NCBI GenBank assembly: GCA_031279085.1
Contig: JAITJD010000002.1
Coordinates: 1-54,817, forward strand
Reading direction: 5' to 3'
Origin: Rickettsiales bacterium
GTDB lineage: Bacteria; Pseudomonadota; Alphaproteobacteria; Rs-D84
DNA length: 54,817 nucleotides
In this document: one piece after another, positions 4,238 through 48,772 of the stretch
Layout of the letters: the number at the start of each line of letters is the position of its first letter
Position numbering within the stretch: position 1 is the first letter of the stretch
Made by a program: the position numbers and the translations under genes
The notes under the pieces: model-generated
What the model was told of the DNA's origin: nothing
Seen by the model: the letters and a program-made list of their open reading frames with translations, nothing else
Database searches by the model: none

Positions 4238-4455
4238 TTTTATAAGCCTTTTTATTATTTAAATTAGTCTGATTTGATTATAAGGTCGCGCGATGCGAAT
4301 CGCAAATGAAAACTATTCCCCCAACGGGGATGAAGACAAAGATGAGAAAGATAAAATCACAAACTTCATTTGAATAAATAATAGTTTATGTTCCGATATT
4401 TTTCAAGCAATTTTTGTCTTGCCACAAATTTGATGTTTTGATAGACTTATAGTTG

Positions 4456-4618
4456 ATGCCTAGGCATTGAGGCGTAAGAACCTCGTCTAAATGCGTCTGG
4501 TTTGACGATAAAAGCCCCCTGCAAAAAGACAGGAGGGCTGGGGAATATTTAGAATACCCGCGCTGTTTCATTTAGACACAGTTCTTAACCTCCTGCCACC
4601 AAAAACTGGTGGTTTTTT
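4456..4618 (+). ncRNA. Structured leader RNA, copy 1 (putative switch)
   Basis: This leader precedes the secreted protein at 4635. In order: 5' hairpin ATGC/GCAT (4456-4467); hairpin GAGG/CCTC (4469-4484) with loop CGTAAGAA; stem P2 CGTC/GACG (4484-4507); stem P3 AGCCCCCTG / CAGGAGGGCT (4513-4539); stem P4 GGG/CCC (4541-4559) around AATATTTAGAATA; hairpin P5 CTGT/ACAG (4563-4581); TTCTTA (4582-4587), which pairs with TAAGAA of the first loop; CCTCCTG (4589-4595), which can replace the P3 5' strand on CAGGAGG; and an intrinsic terminator CCACCA-AAAAC-TGGTGG-TTTTTT (4596-4618). The same layout recurs upstream of 15381(-), 32074(+) and 48373(-). A candidate -10 box TTATAGT is at 4447-4453. Ligand unknown. 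Confidence 0.75.
4596..4618 (+). terminator. Intrinsic terminator inside leader 1 (attenuator)
   Basis: A 6-bp GC-containing stem (CCACCA/TGGTGG), a 5-nt loop and six T residues end only 16 nt before the ATG at 4635. A canonical terminator this close to a start codon implies conditional read-through. Confidence 0.85.
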
Positions 4619-4634
4619 GATACAAGGGAAAGAT

Positions 4635-5534
4635 ATGATTTGCCATAATGGGCCCGGTCAAAGGTTGTTGCTCGCATGCGCGTGGATTTTAATCTTTGAA
4701 TCGCTCGCGCCAGCCGCTACCATTCTGCATTATGGTGCATACAGCAGCACCCTGACTGAGGATAAAAAGACAACGCCTTCGCTGAATGTCTCTTTTAGCG
4801 GCAAGACATATTTCGGCGCGTTGGGGATAGCGTCCGGCGGTAGGTCTGGGCTCAATTTATCGTATGGAAGCAATCAATATGTGCTGGGAGAATACTGCGC
4901 CGAGGGGACATATTCTGCAAATGGCGTCTCGCCATGTGCGGATTGCGCCGCCGGGCATTACTGCATGGGCGGCATCCACCGCGCGCCGTGCGATTACGGA
5001 ATATTTTCATGCCCGGGGGCAAACCATGCGCATAATCCATCATTGCCGGCAGGAGCGGTCGGGAAAACAAACAGAATTTTGACATTAGCAGAAGTGAATA
5101 CCGCCGGAATCCCGGCAACCGATATCAGCCAATGGGGGATGGTGAGTTGTTGTGCTGAACGTTCTTCCGACGAGGAGTATCCAAACACCGACTTTGTAAA
5201 TGTTCTTCCCGGATGCGCGGAAGGGGGCATCGGGCCGGGTGTTTATTTGTTTTTCGACAGAACCGGAAATTTTTGCTACGGAAGTACAGATTTATTTTCG
5301 AATCAGGCAAACATGGCATCCAGTGTGTACATTGCTATATTCGATCGCGCCGTGTCATATCGCACCATGCATGTCCCCAATTATTTTAATAATTGGCTCG
5401 ACTTGGATCACGACGTATTTACAGATTGGGATATAAAAGTGCCGGAAAACTTTTGTAAAAATGATAATCAAACTAACATATCCAATCTGGGCACTGTACC
5501 TCAACGCAATATTTGTGTGTATCGGCTGAAATAA
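4635..5534 (+). CDS. Secreted cysteine-rich protein with GCC2/GCC3-like segment
   Basis: A 299-residue exported protein from ATG 4635. The signal peptide spans about residues 1-28 (RLLLACAWILIFESLAPA-A, cleavage after APA). The in-frame TTG at 4617 lies inside the terminator, so it is rejected as a start. Residues about 85-135 are cysteine-rich with the spacing C-x3-G-x-Y...PC-x2-C-x2-G-x-YC (EYCAEGTYSANG, CADCAAGHYC, HRAPC), resembling the eukaryote-like GCC2/GCC3 (ephrin-receptor-like) repeat. The rest is unfamiliar, with further Cys pairs that suggest disulfides. It is the first gene after leader RNA copy 1. Function unknown; a surface or secreted role is inferred from the signal peptide and Cys content. 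Confidence 0.7.
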   Translation: MICHNGPGQRLLLACAWILIFESLAPAATILHYGAYSSTLTEDKKTTPSLNVSFSGKTYFGALGIASGGRSGLNLSYGSNQYVLGEYCAEGTYSANGVSPCADCAAGHYCMGGIHRAPCDYGIFSCPGANHAHNPSLPAGAVGKTNRILTLAEVNTAGIPATDISQWGMVSCCAERSSDEEYPNTDFVNVLPGCAEGGIGPGVYLFFDRTGNFCYGSTDLFSNQANMASSVYIAIFDRAVSYRTMHVPNYFNNWLDLDHDVFTDWDIKVPENFCKNDNQTNISNLGTVPQRNICVYRLK

Positions 5535-5775
5535 GAATCGCCGTGCACGCGACGGGAAAATTTCTGGATAGCATACGTATGTTGAATTTTATGAAAAACA
5601 AAAAATAATCTTCTCCTGTTTATCAGGAGGTATATTCCCAAGTTTGCTCTTTATCCCCCTTGATAAAATAAGGGTGGCAAAACAGTCGGGGAAAATAGTG
5701 AAAGGTGATAAGTTAAGAGTTGTCGGTGGTGAATCGCTGAAAATTTGCATTGACACAGTGCGGAAAACCGGGCAT
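5535..5775. other. Non-coding stretch with hairpin and degenerate repeat-like sequence
   Basis: There is a hairpin CTCCTG-TTTAT-CAGGAG at about 5613-5629 without a T-run, then CCCCCTTGATAAAATAAGGGTGGCAA-type sequence (5655-5682). That resembles the inverted-repeat motifs at the end of this window (54758-54814). The overlapping short ORFs look like chance reading of this repeat. No gene is supported here. Confidence 0.45.
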
Positions 5776-5777
5776 AA
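5749..5777 (+). promoter_or_regulatory. Sigma70-type promoter for 5859 gene
   Basis: TTGACA (about 5750) and CATAAT (about 5773) are separated by a 17-bp spacer. The predicted transcript starts about 75 nt before the GTG of the small secreted protein. A CCGAC/GTCGG hairpin (about 5815-5829) lies in the leader. Confidence 0.7.
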
Positions 5778-5858
5778 TTGCCCCATAGCTGCGCGTTCGT
5801 CGCCAGGTACAATTCCGACTTTCGGTCGGAGCTATTCAACTAACGAAAGGATATCCGC

Positions 5859-6110
5859 GTGAAAAAGTCATTAACAGCATTCCTACTAATTTCCATGATT
5901 TCTTTTGTTGCAAAGGCTGATGTCATAGTGGTGGATGACCCGTCTCATTGCCCATCGGGTTATGTAGGGATTGAAAGATTCATAGTCACAACAACTTGTC
6001 CGTCGGGCTATACATCCGAATCAGTTGGTAATGTTTATCATTACACCAGCAGCACCGATAGCGTCGCGAATCAAGACGAAACCGGCACATACCTCTACTG
6101 CGCGGTTTGA
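5859..6110 (+). CDS. Small secreted protein with CPSGY motifs
   Basis: This 83-residue protein has a clear signal peptide (KKSLTAFLLISMISFVAKA-D). The mature part carries two CPSGY motifs (about residues 31-35 and 47-51) and a C-terminal Cys (LYCAV), three Cys in all. The start is GTG at 5859, preceded by GAAAGGA 8 nt upstream; no ATG fits. It follows the cysteine-rich gene at 4635 but has its own sigma70 promoter. No family recognised. The export signal and CPSGY pattern, shared in style with the other secreted Cys proteins here, suggest a small envelope or extracellular protein. Confidence 0.65.
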   Translation: MKKSLTAFLLISMISFVAKADVIVVDDPSHCPSGYVGIERFIVTTTCPSGYTSESVGNVYHYTSSTDSVANQDETGTYLYCAV

Positions 6111-14778: not shown

Positions 14779-15381
14779 CTATAACACAAGCCCCGGGTCA
14801 GTAATTATGGGATTCTCGTTAAACGATGATGTATAATAGCAAGTTTGCATAAATTGCCAATTTCCTGAATAATCGCTGCCATTAGGCGGCGAGGCATAGC
14901 ATTTGCTTATTGTGGTATTATCTCCTGCGACGCTGGTTCCGCCTATCGGGCAAATCGTGCAGCCGGAAGTTCCATTAGTGCTGGTGCCGTAATACCCCGC
15001 TGCACAGCGATAGGTGGTTGAAGAGTTGCAAGTATTGCAGCTGCACGATTTGGTTGTCTTTTTCTGGTATCCTGTCCCGTATGCGCTCCAATCAGCATCG
15101 CTGGTGCAATTCGCGCAGCCGGTGCAATTCGACTGGCAATAATAGTAATCATAATCGCAGGTTCCCGCGCTTTGCGTCCCGCCGTTTGTTCTGGTGTATC
15201 CGGAATTGCAGGTGGCGCACGAACAGTATGAACCATTACCATAATAGTAATAGGATTGGCATGAGAGTATATAGCAAGGATTCTCAGTAGAGGGAGCTAC
15301 GTTAACACAAAACGCCGCCCAGGCCCCTTGGCAGCAAAGGGCCACTGTCAGAATAGTTAAGGGTATTCTTAATTTTCTCAT
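14779..15381 (-). CDS. Secreted very cysteine-rich protein, GCC2/GCC3-like
   Basis: A 200-residue exported protein with signal peptide RIPLTILTVALCCQGAWA-A. The mature part contains more than twenty Cys arranged in short loops (YCSCATCNSGYTRTNG, SNCTGCANCTSDAD, SCSCNTCNSS) and ends with CAAGYYGTSTNG, CTICPIGGTS, CYASPPNG, the C-x2-GYYG ... C-x2-CP-x-G-x-S pattern of GCC2/GCC3 (ephrin-receptor-like) repeats. It resembles the product of 4635 in this respect. The SD is AGAGG followed by TTGGA and ATG. It lies behind leader RNA copy 2. A disulfide-stabilised surface or secreted protein is inferred; function unknown. Confidence 0.75.
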   Translation of the reverse strand: MRKLRIPLTILTVALCCQGAWAAFCVNVAPSTENPCYILSCQSYYYYGNGSYCSCATCNSGYTRTNGGTQSAGTCDYDYYYCQSNCTGCANCTSDADWSAYGTGYQKKTTKSCSCNTCNSSTTYRCAAGYYGTSTNGTSGCTICPIGGTSVAGDNTTISKCYASPPNGSDYSGNWQFMQTCYYTSSFNENPIITDPGLVL

Positions 15382-15405: not shown

Positions 15406-15573
15406 AAAACCGCCGGAAAAAAGGCGGTTGGAGGTTAGCGACTATCCAATAAATAGCGGCGGTATTCTACATATTTCCGCACCCTCCAACCCAAGGTTGG
15501 AGCAGCGCATGCATAACGCGGCATGCTCGTGTATTGGAGAGGTCGCTAAACCTCGTCGCGGGAACACCCCGCG
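15406..15573 (-). ncRNA. Structured leader RNA, copy 2 (putative switch)
   Basis: Read on the minus strand: 5' hairpin CGCGGG/CCCGCG (15573-15557); hairpin GAGG/CCTC with loop TTTAGCGA (15554-15539); a GCATGC/GCATGC stem in the P2 position; P3 CTCCAACC/GGTTGGAG (15502-15484); P4 GCGG/CCGC (15480-15459) enclosing AATATGTAGAATA; P5 CTAT/ATAG (15456-15442); CGCTAA (15440-15435), complementary to TTAGCG in the first loop; CCTCCAACC (15434-15426), a second copy of the P3 5' strand; and a terminator-like hairpin AACCGCC/GGCGGTT-TT (15429-15406). Here the start region GAGGTTGGA-ATG also repeats the P3 3' strand, so the CCTCCAACC strand could mask the ribosome site. Confidence 0.75.
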
Positions 15574-15581
15574 GCAATTGA

Positions 15582-15610
15582 ATTATATCCAGAATAAGGC
15601 GGCGGAGCAA
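15582..15610 (-). promoter_or_regulatory. Promoter of leader 2 / cysteine-rich gene
   Basis: On the minus strand, TTGCTC (15610-15605) and TATAAT (15587-15582) are 17 bp apart. The predicted start falls at the first hairpin of leader copy 2. Confidence 0.65.
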
Positions 15611-29755: not shown

Positions 29756-31846
29756 ATGTTGAAAATTTTTGCAAATTATGATGATTCTCGCTGGAAGAGA
29801 TATAAAATCGATTTCGCAGGAATAGTCAACTGCGCCATGCGGCTTGCGCGGCGGCATGATAAGACTTCGGAAATTATGAGGAAATCAGACAGAATTCTTT
29901 TCCCTTGGATGCATAACGTACGTCTGAGCGGCGCGTTCGGAGAAATTGATAGGGAAATCTCGATCATTCTGACCAATGACAGGGAAATCAGGAAGTTGAA
30001 CAAAAAGCACCGCGGAATTGACAAGCCGACAAATGTCTTGTCTTTTGAGACGGGCGATTCGGAATTGCTGGGCGACATATTCATATCTTTTGACACGGTT
30101 CGGCGCCAGGCGGAATCGGAAAATAAAAGATTTGAAGACCATGCGGCGCACATGGTCGTGCACGGCGTTTTGCATTTGCTGGGTCATGACCACCTGAATG
30201 ACGGGGACGCCGGCAAAATGGAGTCGCTGGAAATTGCAATCTTGAAAAGACTGGGGGTTGAAAACCCTTATGGACAGTCGCAAGAGAGCAAAGACCCAAG
30301 CGCGGATAAAAGCGCGTCTCACAAACGCGTGCAAGGCATTCTCTATGCTCTGTTATCTATGCTCTGCGGCGGGGTCGCCTCGTTGGGATTCGCCCCGTTT
30401 TATTTATGGTGGGCGACTGTTCTTGGAATTGGCGGAATGTATTATCTGATCGCGGTCAAAAGTTCGGGCGGCAACTCGCGAGGCATGCCCTGCGTTCTGT
30501 TGAGTTCGCTCTGCTTTGGGTTTGGTTATGCGATTGCTAATTTCTGGTGGGTCACGAACTCGATTTATGTTGTGCCGGAACTGGCCGCGCAATTTGCGGT
30601 ATGGACTGCGCCCGCGCTGGTCGGAATCGGCATCTGCGGGGGAATCGTGTTCGCGGCGCCGTTTGCCGCAATCGGCTGTATGCGGCTGTCGAATGCACAT
30701 AGGCCGTTTTTATTCGCGGCTGCATGGACTGTCGTTTTATGGCTGCGCGAATGGCTGATGACCGGATTTCCATGGAATCCGATTGCAAATATAACAATGC
30801 CGTTTCCCGCGCTGGCCAATTCCATGTCGCTGTGGGGCGCGCTGGGCCTGACATTCGTCATAATCGGGCTGATTGCGTCCGGCGCCGAATTAATAAAGCG
30901 CAATGCGGCGGGCGCAAAGCGCGATTATTTTCCGTTCATGATTTTCTCAGTGCTTTTAGTTGTCGGAATCGCCTCCGGATACGGAAATATTAAAAAATCA
31001 GAGATTCGCGATTATGAATCCGAAGTTGTCGTGCGAATCGTCCAGCCCGCCAAAAGCGCCGCGGACAAGGCGTCGCATTCGAGAGAGCAGGCGCTGGCCA
31101 ACGCGGAAAAGAACATCGCGCGCCTGGCGGAGCTGGCGCGGCAAAGCGCCGGCCGTATTGATTTGCTTGTATTTCCGGAAACATCTTATCCGTATATGAT
31201 AGCCGGCGACGAAGTCCCGTTTGTGAAAGAACTGGCGGTCAAAACCATTATCGGCGCGAATTCTTACAAAGACGGCGGATTTTATAATTCGCTGCTGGTT
31301 GTCGATGCGGGCGGGACAATTGAAAAGATTTACAGCAAATCGCATCTTGTCCCGTTTGGCGAATACCGGCCTTTTGGCGACATAATACCAACCCCGGGCA
31401 AGCTGGCGCGCGGCCTTGGGCCAGAGGTAATAAAGCTGAACCTGGGAATGCGGGAATACTATTTTGCGCCGGCAATATGCTATGAAATCATTTTTTCCGA
31501 TTCGCTGATACCGCGCGGCGCGGCAGATCCTCAGGTCATAATCAACATAACGAACGACACTTGGTTTGGAAAAACGCCGGGAACATACCAGCATCTGGAC
31601 ATGGTGCGCCGGTATGCCATCGAATCGGGGCTGCCGGTTGTCAGGGCGAATTATTCGGGCATCAGCGCGTTTATCGCGGCTGACGGCCGCGTCGATGCGC
31701 AGCTGCCCGTGGGCGGATCGGGCTTTTTGGACGGCACGGCGGGCGGCAGCCATATCACGGCTTATCGCATAATCGGGCGCGACTGGTTGATGATTATGAT
31801 TTTGATGTTTTCAATATCATGTGTGTTTGCCGCGCGCAGAAAATAA
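29756..31846 (+). CDS. Fusion: YbeY endoribonuclease + apolipoprotein N-acyltransferase Lnt
   Basis: A single 696-residue frame joins two normally separate proteins. Residues 1-170 are YbeY (16S rRNA maturation and quality-control RNase), with NVLSFETGD and the metal site HGVLHLLGHDH (His 136, 140, 146). A charged linker (about 170-190) leads to Lnt (190-696), which adds the third acyl chain to lipoproteins in the inner membrane: several helices, then the nitrilase-like domain with FPETS (Glu475), KSHLVPFGEY (Lys528) and CYEIIF (Cys575), the complete catalytic triad. In many alphaproteobacteria ybeY, a corC-type gene and lnt are neighbours, so loss of the middle gene and fusion is a reasonable origin. 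Confidence 0.93.
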   Translation: MLKIFANYDDSRWKRYKIDFAGIVNCAMRLARRHDKTSEIMRKSDRILFPWMHNVRLSGAFGEIDREISIILTNDREIRKLNKKHRGIDKPTNVLSFETGDSELLGDIFISFDTVRRQAESENKRFEDHAAHMVVHGVLHLLGHDHLNDGDAGKMESLEIAILKRLGVENPYGQSQESKDPSADKSASHKRVQGILYALLSMLCGGVASLGFAPFYLWWATVLGIGGMYYLIAVKSSGGNSRGMPCVLLSSLCFGFGYAIANFWWVTNSIYVVPELAAQFAVWTAPALVGIGICGGIVFAAPFAAIGCMRLSNAHRPFLFAAAWTVVLWLREWLMTGFPWNPIANITMPFPALANSMSLWGALGLTFVIIGLIASGAELIKRNAAGAKRDYFPFMIFSVLLVVGIASGYGNIKKSEIRDYESEVVVRIVQPAKSAADKASHSREQALANAEKNIARLAELARQSAGRIDLLVFPETSYPYMIAGDEVPFVKELAVKTIIGANSYKDGGFYNSLLVVDAGGTIEKIYSKSHLVPFGEYRPFGDIIPTPGKLARGLGPEVIKLNLGMREYYFAPAICYEIIFSDSLIPRGAADPQVIINITNDTWFGKTPGTYQHLDMVRRYAIESGLPVVRANYSGISAFIAADGRVDAQLPVGGSGFLDGTAGGSHITAYRIIGRDWLMIMILMFSISCVFAARRK

Positions 31847-31870: not shown

Positions 31871-31881
31871 TGTGATATAAT
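31871..31881 (+). promoter_or_regulatory. Extended -10 promoter of leader 3
   Basis: TGTGATATAAT, with TATAAT at 31876-31881, places the start of transcription at about 31887-31888, at the first hairpin of leader copy 3. Confidence 0.65.
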
Positions 31882-31886
31882 GGAAA

Positions 31887-32056
31887 CGGCGCCGAATGTT
31901 TCAGCGCCGGGGTGTGATTGCCCTTTTGCATGCGTCCGATGGGACGAAAAACTCCAACTCTGTGGGTTGGAGGGACCGCGTGATATACCGAAAGCGCGGC
32001 ACAATTTCATGTAAATTGCAATCAACCTCCAACCACCTGATTATCAGGTGGCCTTT
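31887..32056 (+). ncRNA. Structured leader RNA, copy 3 (putative switch)
   Basis: In order: 5' hairpin CGGCGC/GCGCCG (31887-31909); hairpin GGG/CCC (31910-31923) with loop TGTGATTG; P2 CGTCC-GATG-GGACG (31933-31946); P3 CTCCAAC/GTTGGAG (31952-31972); P4 CCGCG/CGCGG (31976-31999) enclosing GATATACCGAAA; P5 CAATTT/AAATTG (32002-32018); CAATCA (32019-32024), which pairs with TGATTG of the first loop; CCTCCAACC (32026-32034), repeating the P3 5' strand; and hairpin CCACCTGA-TTA-TCAGGTGG followed by CCTTT (32033-32056). The ATG of the protease gene follows at 32074. This copy has the most divergent P4 internal motif. Confidence 0.75.
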
Positions 32057-32073: not shown

Positions 32074-34188
32074 ATGAAGATTCTAGCTTTGTTGGCCTTT
32101 GCAATATTTTTATACATTCCGGCGCATGCGGGCACCGGAAGCATTGACAAGCGCGTCTATGTCGATGATTGGAGCCAGCCGCCTTATAATCAAATAGTGC
32201 TATTTCTGTCCTCAAAAGGCCAATGCACAGCGCAATATGTGGCAAAAGATATAATTCTTACTGCAATGCACTGTTTGAATCATCAACAAAAAATATACAG
32301 GTTCCAACGAGCGGATGGTTCTTACGGTCAGGCGGAGCTTTTAAAGCATGGAACCAAAAATAATGAAATATATGATGATTATGCCTTGCTGCGAGTTATT
32401 GATAGCAATGCTTATTCGACTGTTTGGTTTGATATGGCGGAACAAGCGGCTGTTGGGAAAGTTATCAATGCGGGATTTGGCTGGATGCGAATATTAAATG
32501 ATGATGAAGTAAAAAAGGCAAGAGAAATCTTCGGCGAGGTTATCAGAGAACAGAGCCCGCCAGTTTTTTTCAAAGAAGTGTACAAAAGCATCAAGCTGGA
32601 CTTGGAAATAGCCGGAATAAAACCATTTAGAGAGGAATTCCCCAAGCTGAAAGCGGATACAAGCTGCGAGATAAAAGCACTAAAAAATCTAAAAACTGTT
32701 TTTGGAACGGGGTCGCAAAAACACGGGAAAAAAGTAATCCGGCATACGATTGATGGTTGTTTTTCTTCTAGTTATTATCCTAACAAGAATCAGAGGGAGG
32801 ATGCTGGTATTTTAGATTCTAGTGATTTATATAATAAAACTGATGCTTTTATAAAACAAAACAATCCGGAAAAGGGGTATGATGTCCTTATCAATATTAA
32901 TTGGAGAGAAACAGTGTGTAATAGTAGTCTGTTTAAAACGATATCATATATAACCTCCACCGGCGAACATGAGTTCATATTTGATGTTATTTGTCCTAAA
33001 CAATGTGATGAGATTTATAAGAATGATAGGTATGAAGGAGATGAATACAAATGGATGTTTTCTTCGGATCATCAATTTAGTATGAACTGCCTTGCAGTTA
33101 GTGGAAATTCCGGTGGGCCGATATGGTTCGATAATCAGCTACTCGGAATCGTGTCGGCCGGAGATAATAGTTTTTTAAAGCTTGATTACAAAGAGAATGA
33201 ATATGATGGCGAGATTGGTATAGACGTTCGGATAATAAAACCCGTCTTGGAAGAATTGAAACTTTTGTCAGAGGAACCAAGGATTGAGCCGGGACTAACG
33301 CTTGATGAGCCGGACAAAATAGATGAACGAATTGATGATGTTGAAAAAGATTTGGATAGGGATTTTTCTGAACCTGATCCGGGACTGATGCCTGATGAAC
33401 TGGACAAAATAGGTGAACGAATTGATGATGTTGAAAAAGATTTGGATAGGGATTTTTCTGAACCTGAGCCAGGACTGATGCCTGATGAACTGGACGAATT
33501 AGAGGGTCGAATTGATGCTGTTGAAAAAGATTTGGATATAAATATTTTGAAAGTAACTGATATGAACGATGTGGAGTTTTTCAAATTCCTGAACAAGATG
33601 ACATATTTGCAAGTTTTGCAGGAAAACTACGAGAAAGCAAAAGCGCGGGAAAATTCAACGGCAAACAAGCTGCTGGGGGCGGCGGCCATGGGGGCCGGGG
33701 GCATCGGCGGAATGATGCTGATGCAAGGTATGGCCGAGCAGGCCGCGGATGAAGCCGCAGAAGCGGACATGAAGGCTTATCTGGCTACTTTCAAATGCGA
33801 CTACGGACAAGGTCAGAATATCAGGGGCGGCGAAAAAGAAATAACCCTGCCAGCTGAAAACTTGATATCTTTGCGAAGCGAGTACACTACCTTGGCAAAA
33901 GAATTAAAAAAGACCAAGGAATTATTAGGTCTGGCGCCCGGGATTGAATCAGAGGTAATATTAGACAAGGCAAGTTCCGGACTTTATGACAATGGTTCGA
34001 CAGGCAAGACAGAAGGTGTGTATACGAGCGTATCCAAAGCCCTGTCTGATCCGCAGGGCAAGGACGGGGAAGAATGGGAATCTCAAAAGTCCGAATCTGC
34101 GAGCGGCGCCAAGACCGGCGGCATAGTTGCCGGCGCCGGCGTGCTGGGCGGCGCTGTCGGAAATCTCATCATTAATAAAGGCGATTGA
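32074..34188 (+). CDS. Secreted trypsin-like serine protease with acidic repeats
   Basis: A 704-residue exported protein (signal peptide LALLAFAIFLYIPAHA-G). The chymotrypsin-fold triad is visible: His in LTAMHC, Asp in DDYALL, Ser in SGNSGGPIW, with insertions of about 200 residues between Asp and Ser. Three 30-residue acidic repeats follow (33280-33549). After them come a long predicted helix, two glycine-zipper-like hydrophobic segments (GAAAMGAGGIGGMMLMQGM and GGIVAGAGVLGGAVGNLI) and a Lys-Gly-Asp end. The hydrophobic Gly-rich tail suggests envelope anchoring. Codon use is AT-richer than nearby core genes. It lies behind leader RNA copy 3. Substrate unknown. Confidence 0.8.
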   Translation: MKILALLAFAIFLYIPAHAGTGSIDKRVYVDDWSQPPYNQIVLFLSSKGQCTAQYVAKDIILTAMHCLNHQQKIYRFQRADGSYGQAELLKHGTKNNEIYDDYALLRVIDSNAYSTVWFDMAEQAAVGKVINAGFGWMRILNDDEVKKAREIFGEVIREQSPPVFFKEVYKSIKLDLEIAGIKPFREEFPKLKADTSCEIKALKNLKTVFGTGSQKHGKKVIRHTIDGCFSSSYYPNKNQREDAGILDSSDLYNKTDAFIKQNNPEKGYDVLININWRETVCNSSLFKTISYITSTGEHEFIFDVICPKQCDEIYKNDRYEGDEYKWMFSSDHQFSMNCLAVSGNSGGPIWFDNQLLGIVSAGDNSFLKLDYKENEYDGEIGIDVRIIKPVLEELKLLSEEPRIEPGLTLDEPDKIDERIDDVEKDLDRDFSEPDPGLMPDELDKIGERIDDVEKDLDRDFSEPEPGLMPDELDELEGRIDAVEKDLDINILKVTDMNDVEFFKFLNKMTYLQVLQENYEKAKARENSTANKLLGAAAMGAGGIGGMMLMQGMAEQAADEAAEADMKAYLATFKCDYGQGQNIRGGEKEITLPAENLISLRSEYTTLAKELKKTKELLGLAPGIESEVILDKASSGLYDNGSTGKTEGVYTSVSKALSDPQGKDGEEWESQKSESASGAKTGGIVAGAGVLGGAVGNLIINKGD
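33280..33549 (+). repeat. Three 90-bp in-frame tandem repeats
   Basis: Units start at about 33280, 33370 and 33460. Each encodes EPxPGLxxDExDxIxxRIDDVEKDLDRDFS-type sequence; the last two share long near-identical DNA. They are in frame within the protease gene, so copy number could change without breaking the frame. Confidence 0.85.
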
Positions 34189-47197: not shown

Positions 47198-48373
47198 CTA
47201 TTTCCATAATGCGGGGATATTCGCATAGTCGGATAAATTGAGGGTGTTTTTGTATATCTGTATAACATTATCTTCCGTTGCGTCGGGCCAGATATCGTAA
47301 AGGTATTGCCCGCCGATTTTCGCCGACGGCCCGGTCAGACCGGGACAGTCAGCAAATGCATAAGTGAATGCTCGGGTGGGGAGCGGATCGGATGTTTCAA
47401 TTCCATCGAATAATCCGTCGCCTATGCCGGTCAGACCGGGGCAATTCTGAAAGGTTCCATTAAAATCCCATCCTTTCAAAGAACCCTGTATACCTGAAAA
47501 TAAATTTCCCGGAATCTGGCCGGTCAAATTTTTATTTCCTTGGAAAACACGTTCCATCATGGCATATGCGGGCGGGCCTTGGAGTCCGGCAAACAGATTT
47601 TCCGGAATTTCGCCGGTGAAATCCGTGTCATAGAATATATACGCAAACATCCATTCTATCGGCGCGCCGCGCAGCCCCGCAAATAAAGTTTCGGGAATCG
47701 GTCCGCTTAAATTTGAACAAAGGGCAAAAGTTTTCATAAATCGCGGCGCACCGGCCACCGTGTTGCTCAAGATTGGGAACACTTCGCCCAAATCGCCGTA
47801 AATTCTTCGAACTTTGCTGCAATCGTCAGAAAACGAAATTGCATGGTTGCCCCAACCATAGCCAGTCGTATAACCGGTCGCCGGCCCGTTTATGGTGACC
47901 CGATAATTCCGCGCTGCTGCGTAAGTGTGCGAGTAAACATCTTCCAATGTATCGGTCTTTATCATAACTTCCTTGCTTCCGTCGCCCCAACTAATCGTAA
48001 AAGTTCCCTTGGCGGTTATCTTGAAGCTGAACGAGCCCGCATTTTCCAGCAATAGGCCGAATCCGCGGGTCTGCTTGATTAAATCTCTTATATATTCGGC
48101 TGCTTTCAAAGAATCTATTGTATTTGGCAGCGCGATGTCGGAAGACGCATAGTTCGTTGCCGTTTCGTTTAGAATTTCGTTTGCGCGATCAATTTGCAAA
48201 AGTACGTATTTGGCCGATGCAACCCTTGAATCAATTATGCCGGGTTCCAATGGCACCGCCAACCCATGGACGTCAGTGATTGTATCGTGAATGTATTTGA
48301 CCGAAGCGATTTTGGCTTGAGCGCCACAAAATGATGAAAAAATAAGTAAGAATATCGACAAAAGAGTGCGCAT
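47198..48373 (-). CDS. Secreted LRR-like surface protein
   Basis: A 391-residue protein with signal peptide (RTLLSIFLLIFSSFCGAQA-K), an AKIASVKYIHDTI segment, a beta-rich domain (FTISWGDGSKEVMIKT, with the WGDG of PKD-like or surface proteins) and a series of degenerate repeats: LSGPIPETLFAGLRG, FTGEIPENLFAGLQG, LTGQIPGNLFSGIQG, LTGIGDGLFDGI. These resemble LxGxIP-x-x-LF leucine-rich-repeat units. Two upstream start codons compete; ATG 48373 has AAGGAG 7 nt upstream, ATG 48379 only 1 nt, so 48373 is chosen. It lies behind leader RNA copy 4. Probably adhesive (inference). Confidence 0.75.
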   Translation of the reverse strand: MRTLLSIFLLIFSSFCGAQAKIASVKYIHDTITDVHGLAVPLEPGIIDSRVASAKYVLLQIDRANEILNETATNYASSDIALPNTIDSLKAAEYIRDLIKQTRGFGLLLENAGSFSFKITAKGTFTISWGDGSKEVMIKTDTLEDVYSHTYAAARNYRVTINGPATGYTTGYGWGNHAISFSDDCSKVRRIYGDLGEVFPILSNTVAGAPRFMKTFALCSNLSGPIPETLFAGLRGAPIEWMFAYIFYDTDFTGEIPENLFAGLQGPPAYAMMERVFQGNKNLTGQIPGNLFSGIQGSLKGWDFNGTFQNCPGLTGIGDGLFDGIETSDPLPTRAFTYAFADCPGLTGPSAKIGGQYLYDIWPDATEDNVIQIYKNTLNLSDYANIPALWK

Positions 48374-48395
48374 TTCCATCTCCTTGGAAATATTG

Positions 48396-48560
48396 CCCGC
48401 CCTGCCATGGGCAAGGTGGGTTGGAGGCTAGAAACAATTCTTTGTGAAATTGTGCTGCGTATTCAAAATATTAAGCAACCCTCCAACCAGACAGCTGGAG
48501 TGTTTCGTCAGAACTGACGCACAAAGAAAGGGCTTCTAGACCCTGCCGCACAACCGTGCG
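48396..48560 (-). ncRNA. Structured leader RNA, copy 4 (putative switch)
   Basis: Read on the minus strand: 5' hairpin CGCAC-GGTT-GTGCG (48560-48547); hairpin AGGG/CCCT (48544-48529) with loop TCTAGAAG; P2 CGTCA-GTTC-TGACG (48519-48506); P3 CTCCAGC/GTTGGAG (48500-48481, one G-U pair); P4 TGCT/AGCA (within 48478-48453) enclosing AATATTTTGAATA; P5 CAATT/AATTG (48452-48435); TTCTAG (48433-48428), complementary to CTAGAA of the first loop; CCTCCAACCC (48427-48418), repeating the P3 5' strand; and an 11-bp stem with one mismatch, loop CAT (48420-48396). It has no T-run, so this copy may act on translation instead. A TATAAT lies at 48574-48569. Confidence 0.72.
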
Positions 48561-48772
48561 ACCCTTGGATTATAACATAGAGCGGAAAATAATAAAAGAA
48601 AATAGTATGAAAGCGGCGGTCAATATCGTCATCAATACGAGTAATTTTTTAATTCGTCGCCGCGAATAGCCCGGGTAATAAAAAATTACCTTACTGAAAA
48701 AACAAAACCCGCAACCTAATTAGGCTTGCGGGGCATTGTTTTTAATTTGCCAATTTCTATGGCTGCTATATG
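48561..48772. other. Non-coding stretch between leader 4 and the GNAT gene
   Basis: It contains the leader 4 promoter (TATAAT on the minus strand, 48574-48569), an AT-rich segment, the GNAT terminator at 48705-48739, and repeat copy 2 at 48759-48774. No gene seen. Confidence 0.5.
48705..48739 (-). terminator. Terminator of the GNAT gene
   Basis: On the minus strand, a CCCGCAA / TTGCGGG stem (loop GCCTAATTAGG) is followed by TTTTGTTTTTT. It lies just after the 3' end of the minus-strand GNAT gene. Confidence 0.75.

Follow-up and report, generated by a model that had tools for sequence, protein, structure and literature searches.

The window (the whole stretch of DNA analysed, 54,817 nucleotides) contains genes for BipA, SerRS, ribonucleotide reductase, a tyrosine recombinase, LptF/G, MutL, SecD, FtsK, a MgsA/RarA-type ATPase, a set of aminoacyl-tRNA synthetases, and others. 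By gene content it is otherwise ordinary chromosome, and the RNA elements described here therefore do not lie within a prophage. Four copies of one element, A at 4456-4618(+), B at 15406-15573(-), C at 31887-32056(+) and D at 48396-48560(-), share a common architecture, and all are found at the positions and with the order of elements given by the initial annotation (Table 1). Simple folding yields an identical arrangement across the four copies, at -57 to -77 kcal/mol. The covariance model R1 scores them at 122.5, 97.4, 94.5 and 81.1 bits (E values of 2e-29 to 7e-19); R1 was trained on 26 copies that include these four, and independent support comes from covariation and from the many copies elsewhere.

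Each copy leads a gene. As initially proposed, the four products are predicted to be exported; their description as lineage-specific is not fully right, because the product after copy C has a trypsin-like domain. A possible fifth, decayed copy lies at 5769-5886(+) and scores 17.7 bits with R1 (E 0.0098); its P2 and P5 are recognisable and its tail is lost. Elsewhere in the window, a single open reading frame at 29756-31846(+) encodes both endoribonuclease YbeY and apolipoprotein N-acyltransferase (Lnt), whose genes are usually separate.

Table 1. Elements of the four leader copies and the genes that follow them (window coordinates)
Copy	Feature	Position	Strand	Remarks
A	-10 box TATAGT	4448..4453	+	read from sequence
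A	P1, 5' hairpin	4456..4467	+	at presumed transcript start
A	P2 hairpin	4469..4484	+	loop 4475-4480 (TAAGAA) is a1, pairs with a' 4582-4587
A	b1 strand TCTAAATG	4486..4493	+	partner b' 4569-4576, in P7 loop
A	P4 hairpin	4494..4507	+	absent from short variant
A	P5 hairpin	4515..4537	+	3' strand has P5-5' or tail as partner
A	P6 hairpin	4538..4560	+	conserved AATA..GAATA motif
A	P7 hairpin	4563..4581	+	b' in loop
A	a' (TTCTTA)	4582..4587	+	partner of a1
A	tail CCTCCTGCC	4589..4597	+	duplicate of P5-5', alternative partner of P5-3'
A	predicted intrinsic terminator CCACC..GGTGG + T6	4596..4618	+	overlaps tail
A	gene	4635..5534	+	299-aa Cys-rich protein, probably exported; no Pfam match
B	-10 box TATAAT	15582..15587	-	
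B	P1	15557..15573	-	
B	P2 hairpin	15539..15554	-	a1 15543-15547
B	b1	15532..15537	-	
B	P5 hairpin	15484..15502	-	P4, unusual, at 15507-15526
B	P6 and P7	15442..15480	-	P6 15459-15480; P7 with b' 15442-15456
B	a' and tail	within 15406..15441	-	a' 15437-15441; tail 15426-15434
B	predicted terminator AACCGCC..GGCGGTTTT	15406-15429	-	
B	gene	14779..15381	-	200-aa predicted exported Cys/Tyr-rich protein
C	-10 box TATAAT	31876..31881	+	
C	P1	31888..31908	+	
C	P2, then b1	31909-31923, 31925-31932	+	a1 31916-31920
C	P4, P5	31933-31946, 31952-31972	+	
C	P6, P7	31976-31999, 32002-32018	+	P7 with b'
C	a', tail	32019-32023, 32026-32034	+	
C	terminator-like stem	32033-32051	+	weak U-tract
C	gene	32074..34188	+	704-aa predicted exported protein, trypsin-like domain
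D	-10 box TATAAT	48569..48574	-	
D	P1	48547..48560	-	
D	P2, then b1	48529-48544, 48520-48529	-	a1 48533-48539
D	P4, P5	48506-48519, 48481-48500	-	
D	P6, P7	48455-48478, 48435-48452	-	P7 with b'
D	a', tail	48428-48434, 48419-48427	-	
D	terminator-like stem	48396-48420	-	no good U-tract
D	gene	47198..48379	-	393-aa predicted exported protein; no Pfam match

From 5' to 3', the element consists of a TATAAT box, P1, P2 with the a1 loop, the b1 strand, P4, P5, P6, P7, a' and the tail. As read from the sequence, these are followed by a terminator, whose 5' arm overlaps the tail, just ahead of the ribosome-binding site and the ATG. The TATAAT-like box mostly lies 33-34 nt 5' of P2 (139 copies), and the leader starts just past it. 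The distance from tail to start codon has a median of 47 nt and is 41-57 nt in most copies. The P2 hairpin has the consensus GGGGTGTnnnnACCYC, and its a1 loop pairs with a' directly before the tail. P5 is typically CCTCCAACC..GGTTGGAGG. The internal motif of P6 (AATAT..GAATA) is conserved while the surrounding stems vary. P7, a hairpin beyond the set initially described, carries the pseudoknot strand b' in its loop.

The initial annotation had attributed the retained pairing to selection on RNA structure, and the substitution pattern bears this out: 120 cells are changed on both sides, compared with 35.9 in shuffles, and none of 500 shuffles reaches this number. Cells are paired in 90.1% of cases in the first set (72.7% in shuffles) and in 94.1% in the distant set (60.7% in shuffles; 0 of 500 as high). 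Covariation is found in a1:a' (five of five pairs), b1:b', P4, P5, P6, P7 and the alternative helix between P5-3' and the tail. Alignments built with R1 are biased towards that model, and a structure-blind MAFFT alignment of 131 copies is free of that bias. The a1:a' helix ranks first in this blind alignment by background-corrected mutual information (z of about 25), which confirms the proposed pairing of a loop with a downstream partner; P6, P7, P2, P4, P5 and the tail helix are also recovered. Columns 5 and 161 of the same alignment form a U-A/C-G covarying pair that links the 5' strand of P2 with the base before P7. Judged from this variation, the pair is probably a tertiary contact.

The P5-3' strand has two identical partners, P5-5' and the tail, and both pairings covary. 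What had been described as a second copy of the P3 5' strand is thus real and covaries as an alternative helix. P5 and P5-3':tail share one strand, yet in the distant set 94.4% and 95.4% of their cells, respectively, are paired; both-side changes occur in seven of the eight P5-3':tail pairs. Across distant families, a tail matches its own P5-3' over 8.0 nt and swapped tails match over 5.15 nt (G-C and A-T pairs only). A stem that starts in the tail and is followed by five or more U in 9 nt is present in 117 of the 138 family copies, where shuffles give 4-7, and in 50 of the 81 distant copies, where shuffles give 1-2. By eye, some copies (L130, L133) would allow an anti-Shine-Dalgarno function of the tail (AACCTCC against GGAGG), a reading that was set aside; the tail covaries with P5-3'.

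A closed P5 and the P5-3':tail helix are mutually exclusive and lie ahead of a terminator, which is the anatomy of an attenuator. The antiterminator, the terminator and a U-tract are all present in the sequence; the terminator-like stem first reported in the window is followed by a U-tract in copies A and B and by a weak one in copies C and D. When pseudoknots are left out, energy folding of copies A and C prefers the terminator state, and formation of the antiterminator would therefore require help. Together, the covariation, the alternative helix and the terminator statistics uphold the view of a structured, selected and switch-like leader.

The element is common in related bacteria, as a covariance-model search of the kind suggested at the outset demonstrates. 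R1 finds 15 clear copies in the genome to which the window belongs. At family level (gut Alphaproteobacteria, e.g., Candidatus Enterousia), 109 of the 113 genomes sampled have copies; at order level the count is 178 of 201, and in a class-wide sample it is 19 of 385, other families among them. BLASTN with copy C finds copies in 11 of 40 genomes, including its own. The highest copy number in the family is at least 30 per genome, and the single 1.0-Mb chromosome of Candidatus Enterousia intestinigallinarum (OX097180.1) carries 24-26 copies. In a protein-independent pattern scan of GTDB contigs, the 80 matches listed are all from MAGs, named only as Alphaproteobacteria, Rickettsiales, Candidatus Enterousia or unclassified proteobacteria or bacteria, and many are from animal guts. 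A pattern scan of 2.9 million viral contigs gives only four matches, three of which are confirmed by the model; a short tail pattern run against the viral contigs was unspecific and was discarded. Two or three full copies occur in tandem, about 200-280 nt apart and with one gene behind the last, at L270 5587-6130, L245 2359-2998 and L229 755-1150.

Among 136 led proteins, the foremost Pfam matches are HTH domains (12 HTH_31 and 10 HTH_3). Single cases include outer-membrane barrels, an opacity porin, a surface antigen, PilS/bundlin pilins, Stealth and other glycosyltransferases, and Bro-N. A signal-peptide-like start is found in 14 of the 22 led proteins of OX097180.1, compared with 31% of genes (p 0.0017), by a crude home-made predictor. 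Export is predicted for 1 of 12 proteins led by a short variant without P4 and for 75 of 101 led by longer forms; many proteins led by the short variant are small HTH proteins. This variant is about 104-112 nt long and is found, mostly before genes for small HTH regulators, at L279, L202, L211, L213, L232, L236, L267 and G051 (OX097180.1) 527519-532041. One copy (L482 8460-8590) leads a 595-aa protein that is ABC-transporter-like as judged by eye, an exception to the exported or HTH rule.

The element had been proposed as a new switch class that fits nothing known. The whole window has no Rfam match at the gathering threshold, and known riboswitch classes and the T-box were rejected as candidates for lack of an Rfam match. 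Below the cut-off, however, a relationship emerges that does not support this proposal as stated: judged from sequence, the 3' half of the element is homologous to RF02221 (sRNA-Xcc1), and RF02221 members share the a1/b1 5' half. Copy A scores 27.2 bits with RF02221 against a gathering cut-off of 53, which is at chance level in the window alone, and copies from elsewhere reach 40-45 bits. Searched genome by genome, RF02221 has matches in eight of nine genomes (E 1e-5 to 1e-8), many at the 3' half of copies. The best site in the window's own genome that is shared with R1 reaches 38.8 bits (E 8.7e-6), and the best score among the alphaproteobacterial genomes tested, 52.9, does not attain the cut-off. 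In the alignment, the outer stem, P6 and P7 have the same order as in RF02221, and the helices covary. A second model, R2, built solely from alphaproteobacterial copies, recovers 14 of 33 RF02221 loci, 5' half included, and no other site in 97 kb. R1 also detects one RF02221 locus (L455, E 7.8e-4). RF02221-type copies missed by R1 occur in the window's own genome (G000:C13:3997-4087 and C21:16098-16187) and in OX097180.1 (111251-111341 and 448390-448481), and these genomes therefore hold a second branch of the family alongside the first.

Thirty RF02221 loci from across the Pseudomonadota, all above the cut-off, were examined with their flanks. An EHEC locus (L446, E. coli EDL933 1392052-1392140), where the sRNA-Xcc1 annotation overlaps the start of a Hok/Gef gene and family membership looks doubtful, was left out. 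Most of the 30 loci have a P2-like a1 hairpin and a b1 strand upstream. The longest identity between the upstream stretch and the complement of the core is 8.8 nt, compared with 5.5 nt when loci are swapped. The downstream a2/b2 match is 7.0 nt, compared with 4.9 nt swapped, and reaches at least 7 nt in 63% of loci (14% swapped). At one locus (L458, CCTCGAAAAGGAGAATAGTAGCCATG), a2 and b2 lie on either side of GGAG. Window-type copies have no a2/b2 near the start codon (5.73 compared with 5.60 swapped). The genes after RF02221 loci include Phage_pRha (Rha), Bro-N, P22 antirepressor, KilA-N and SymE, and in the phages Aaphi23 and Rac-SA53 the RNA directly precedes ant.

sRNA-Xcc1 occurs in Xanthomonas, other Pseudomonadota, phages, integrons and plasmids; in plant pathogens it has been described as a virulence-linked sRNA acting in trans. 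The Xanthomonas RNA is 88 nt long with mapped ends and gives a Northern band of about 100 nt (PMC2996969); a discrete RNA of about this size is known from that genus only. Copies are known from integron cassettes upstream of symE (PMC12444791) and are clustered in Xylella (PMC12189769). Within the freely accessible literature searched, sRNA-Xcc1 and antirepressors are nowhere mentioned together, and a full RF02221 leader that includes a1/b1 and a2/b2 appears to be new. These results suggest that the RNA modelled by Rfam is part of a larger leader, namely its 3' half, and that this leader follows a C4-like antisense logic. The fold in the window represents a new branch, expanded and rebuilt, within an RNA family that is known but poorly understood.

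The loop pairings are specific to each copy. Nearly all a1 and a' sequences differ between paralogs yet match inside each copy. The 15 copies in the window's own genome have 13 distinct a1 loops, and full cross-matches make up 5.7%; two copies score 3/5 with themselves, at least one of them through a one-base slip of the fixed register. Such self-specificity is expected under antisense control and is not required of a ligand pocket. Combined with the antirepressor context of the relatives, the hypervariable self-specific pairings favour an antisense-type attenuator over a metabolite riboswitch, with moderate confidence.

The element is thus rather likely to be a cis-acting leader, homologous to sRNA-Xcc1, that attenuates transcription through antisense-type self-recognition; in short, a probable domesticated attenuator of the C4/CI type. 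When P5 is closed, the tail would be free, the terminator would form and the gene would be off. When P5-3' pairs with the tail, the terminator would be blocked and the gene would be on. By analogy with the relatives, the core RNA of the same locus probably biases this choice in trans by pairing with a1/b1 on new transcripts, which would give each locus its own self-specific feedback, as in P1 C4 and P4 CI control. The cis part of this reading is better supported than the trans part. The family was probably acquired from mobile elements, may have lost the a2/b2 target at the start codon and gained a terminator, and would then have spread, coming to lead genes for exported proteins as well as small HTH regulators.

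A riboswitch for a metabolite or second messenger is an unlikely alternative, in which the double pseudoknot and the P6 motif would form a ligand pocket, the ligand would select terminator or antiterminator, and the many envelope-gene copies would make up one global signal regulon. The complex conserved fold with its invariant P6 motif, the clean expression platform, the coherent surface-protein theme downstream and the high copy number all agree with it. The most variable parts, however, are the self-specific pairings, the relatives precede phage antirepressors and toxins and have a2/b2 antisense targets, and the genes show no ligand theme. c-di-GMP is an unlikely ligand, since no GGDEF domain is present in five genomes of the family. 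Less probable again is recognition of the leader at the P6 motif by an RNA-binding or antitermination protein, either a small HTH protein or a dedicated factor. Conservation of this motif between variable stems and the frequency of small HTH genes among the targets would fit, but HTH/XRE proteins usually bind DNA, no candidate protein was identified, and the a/b specificity would be left without explanation.

There is very little likelihood that the element is mainly a gene for a trans-acting sRNA that ends at its own terminator and lies upstream of genes by chance. The mapped 88-nt Xanthomonas RNA (PMC2996969) and the tandem copies without an intervening gene would be consistent with this, but the tightly kept distance to the start codon is too short for a separate promoter, and the logic of P5, tail and terminator is that of a cis attenuator. 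A mobile repeat selected as DNA, such as an integron-like site or miniature element, is hardly credible despite the many copies per genome and the relatives in integrons, phages and plasmids, as covariation that includes G-U pairs, fixed spacing to promoter and start codon and an orientation in the sense of the next gene all point to a function as RNA, and viral contigs yield so few matches.

The results suggest that in Alphaproteobacteria that are host-associated and genome-reduced, many exported proteins are under the control of a large unannotated RF02221 branch. It is conceivable, as a tentative proposal, that gut Alphaproteobacteria have made a phage antirepressor-control RNA into a genome-wide set of 15 to 30+ mutually insulated, self-specific attenuators, by which individual surface proteins and small regulators would be switched separately, a new RNA-based layer of surface control; alternatively, the fold may have become a ligand-sensing riboswitch. 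The gains are a concrete, testable model of surface control in uncultured gut bacteria and a better covariance model for annotation.

Several known systems resemble the element in part. A genome may carry many c-di-GMP riboswitches (GEMM), placed on surface and pilin genes, and the window RNA shares this high copy number on surface genes; it differs from them in having no Rfam match and in the lack of GGDEF noted above. sRNA-Xcc1 shares the outer stem (equivalent to P5-3':tail), P6 with AATA..GAATA, P7, a', the tail, and the upstream a1 hairpin and b1. Unlike sRNA-Xcc1, the window RNA falls below the Rfam cut-off, has a compact P4/P5 between b1 and the core, lacks a2/b2, ends in a terminator and leads genes for exported proteins.

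C4 of phage P1 sets a'/b' against a1/b1 and a2/b2. The window RNA resembles C4 (P1/P7; RF01695, c4-2, c4-a1b1) in that the a'/b' of its core is complementary to the upstream a1/b1. RF02221 loci, like C4, also have a2/b2 at the start of the antirepressor gene, which the alphaproteobacterial form lacks. The targets in the window are predicted exported proteins rather than a phage antirepressor; some relatives precede Bro-N and HTH genes. The Rfam c4, c4-2 and isrK models do not match these loci. R2 has no match in the phage P4 immunity region examined (L480), which was rejected as a sequence homolog on this basis. P4 CI RNA is processed from the leader and pairs with upstream seqA and downstream seqC, which results in premature termination (PMC4825925). 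In both P4 CI and Salmonella IsrK, premature termination is controlled by a core strand complementary to a pair of similar sequences, of which one lies upstream and the other downstream (PMC4825925). The P5-5', P5-3' and tail strands of the window RNA resemble seqA, seqB and seqC of P4, and the window RNA has the upstream half of the C4/CI logic.
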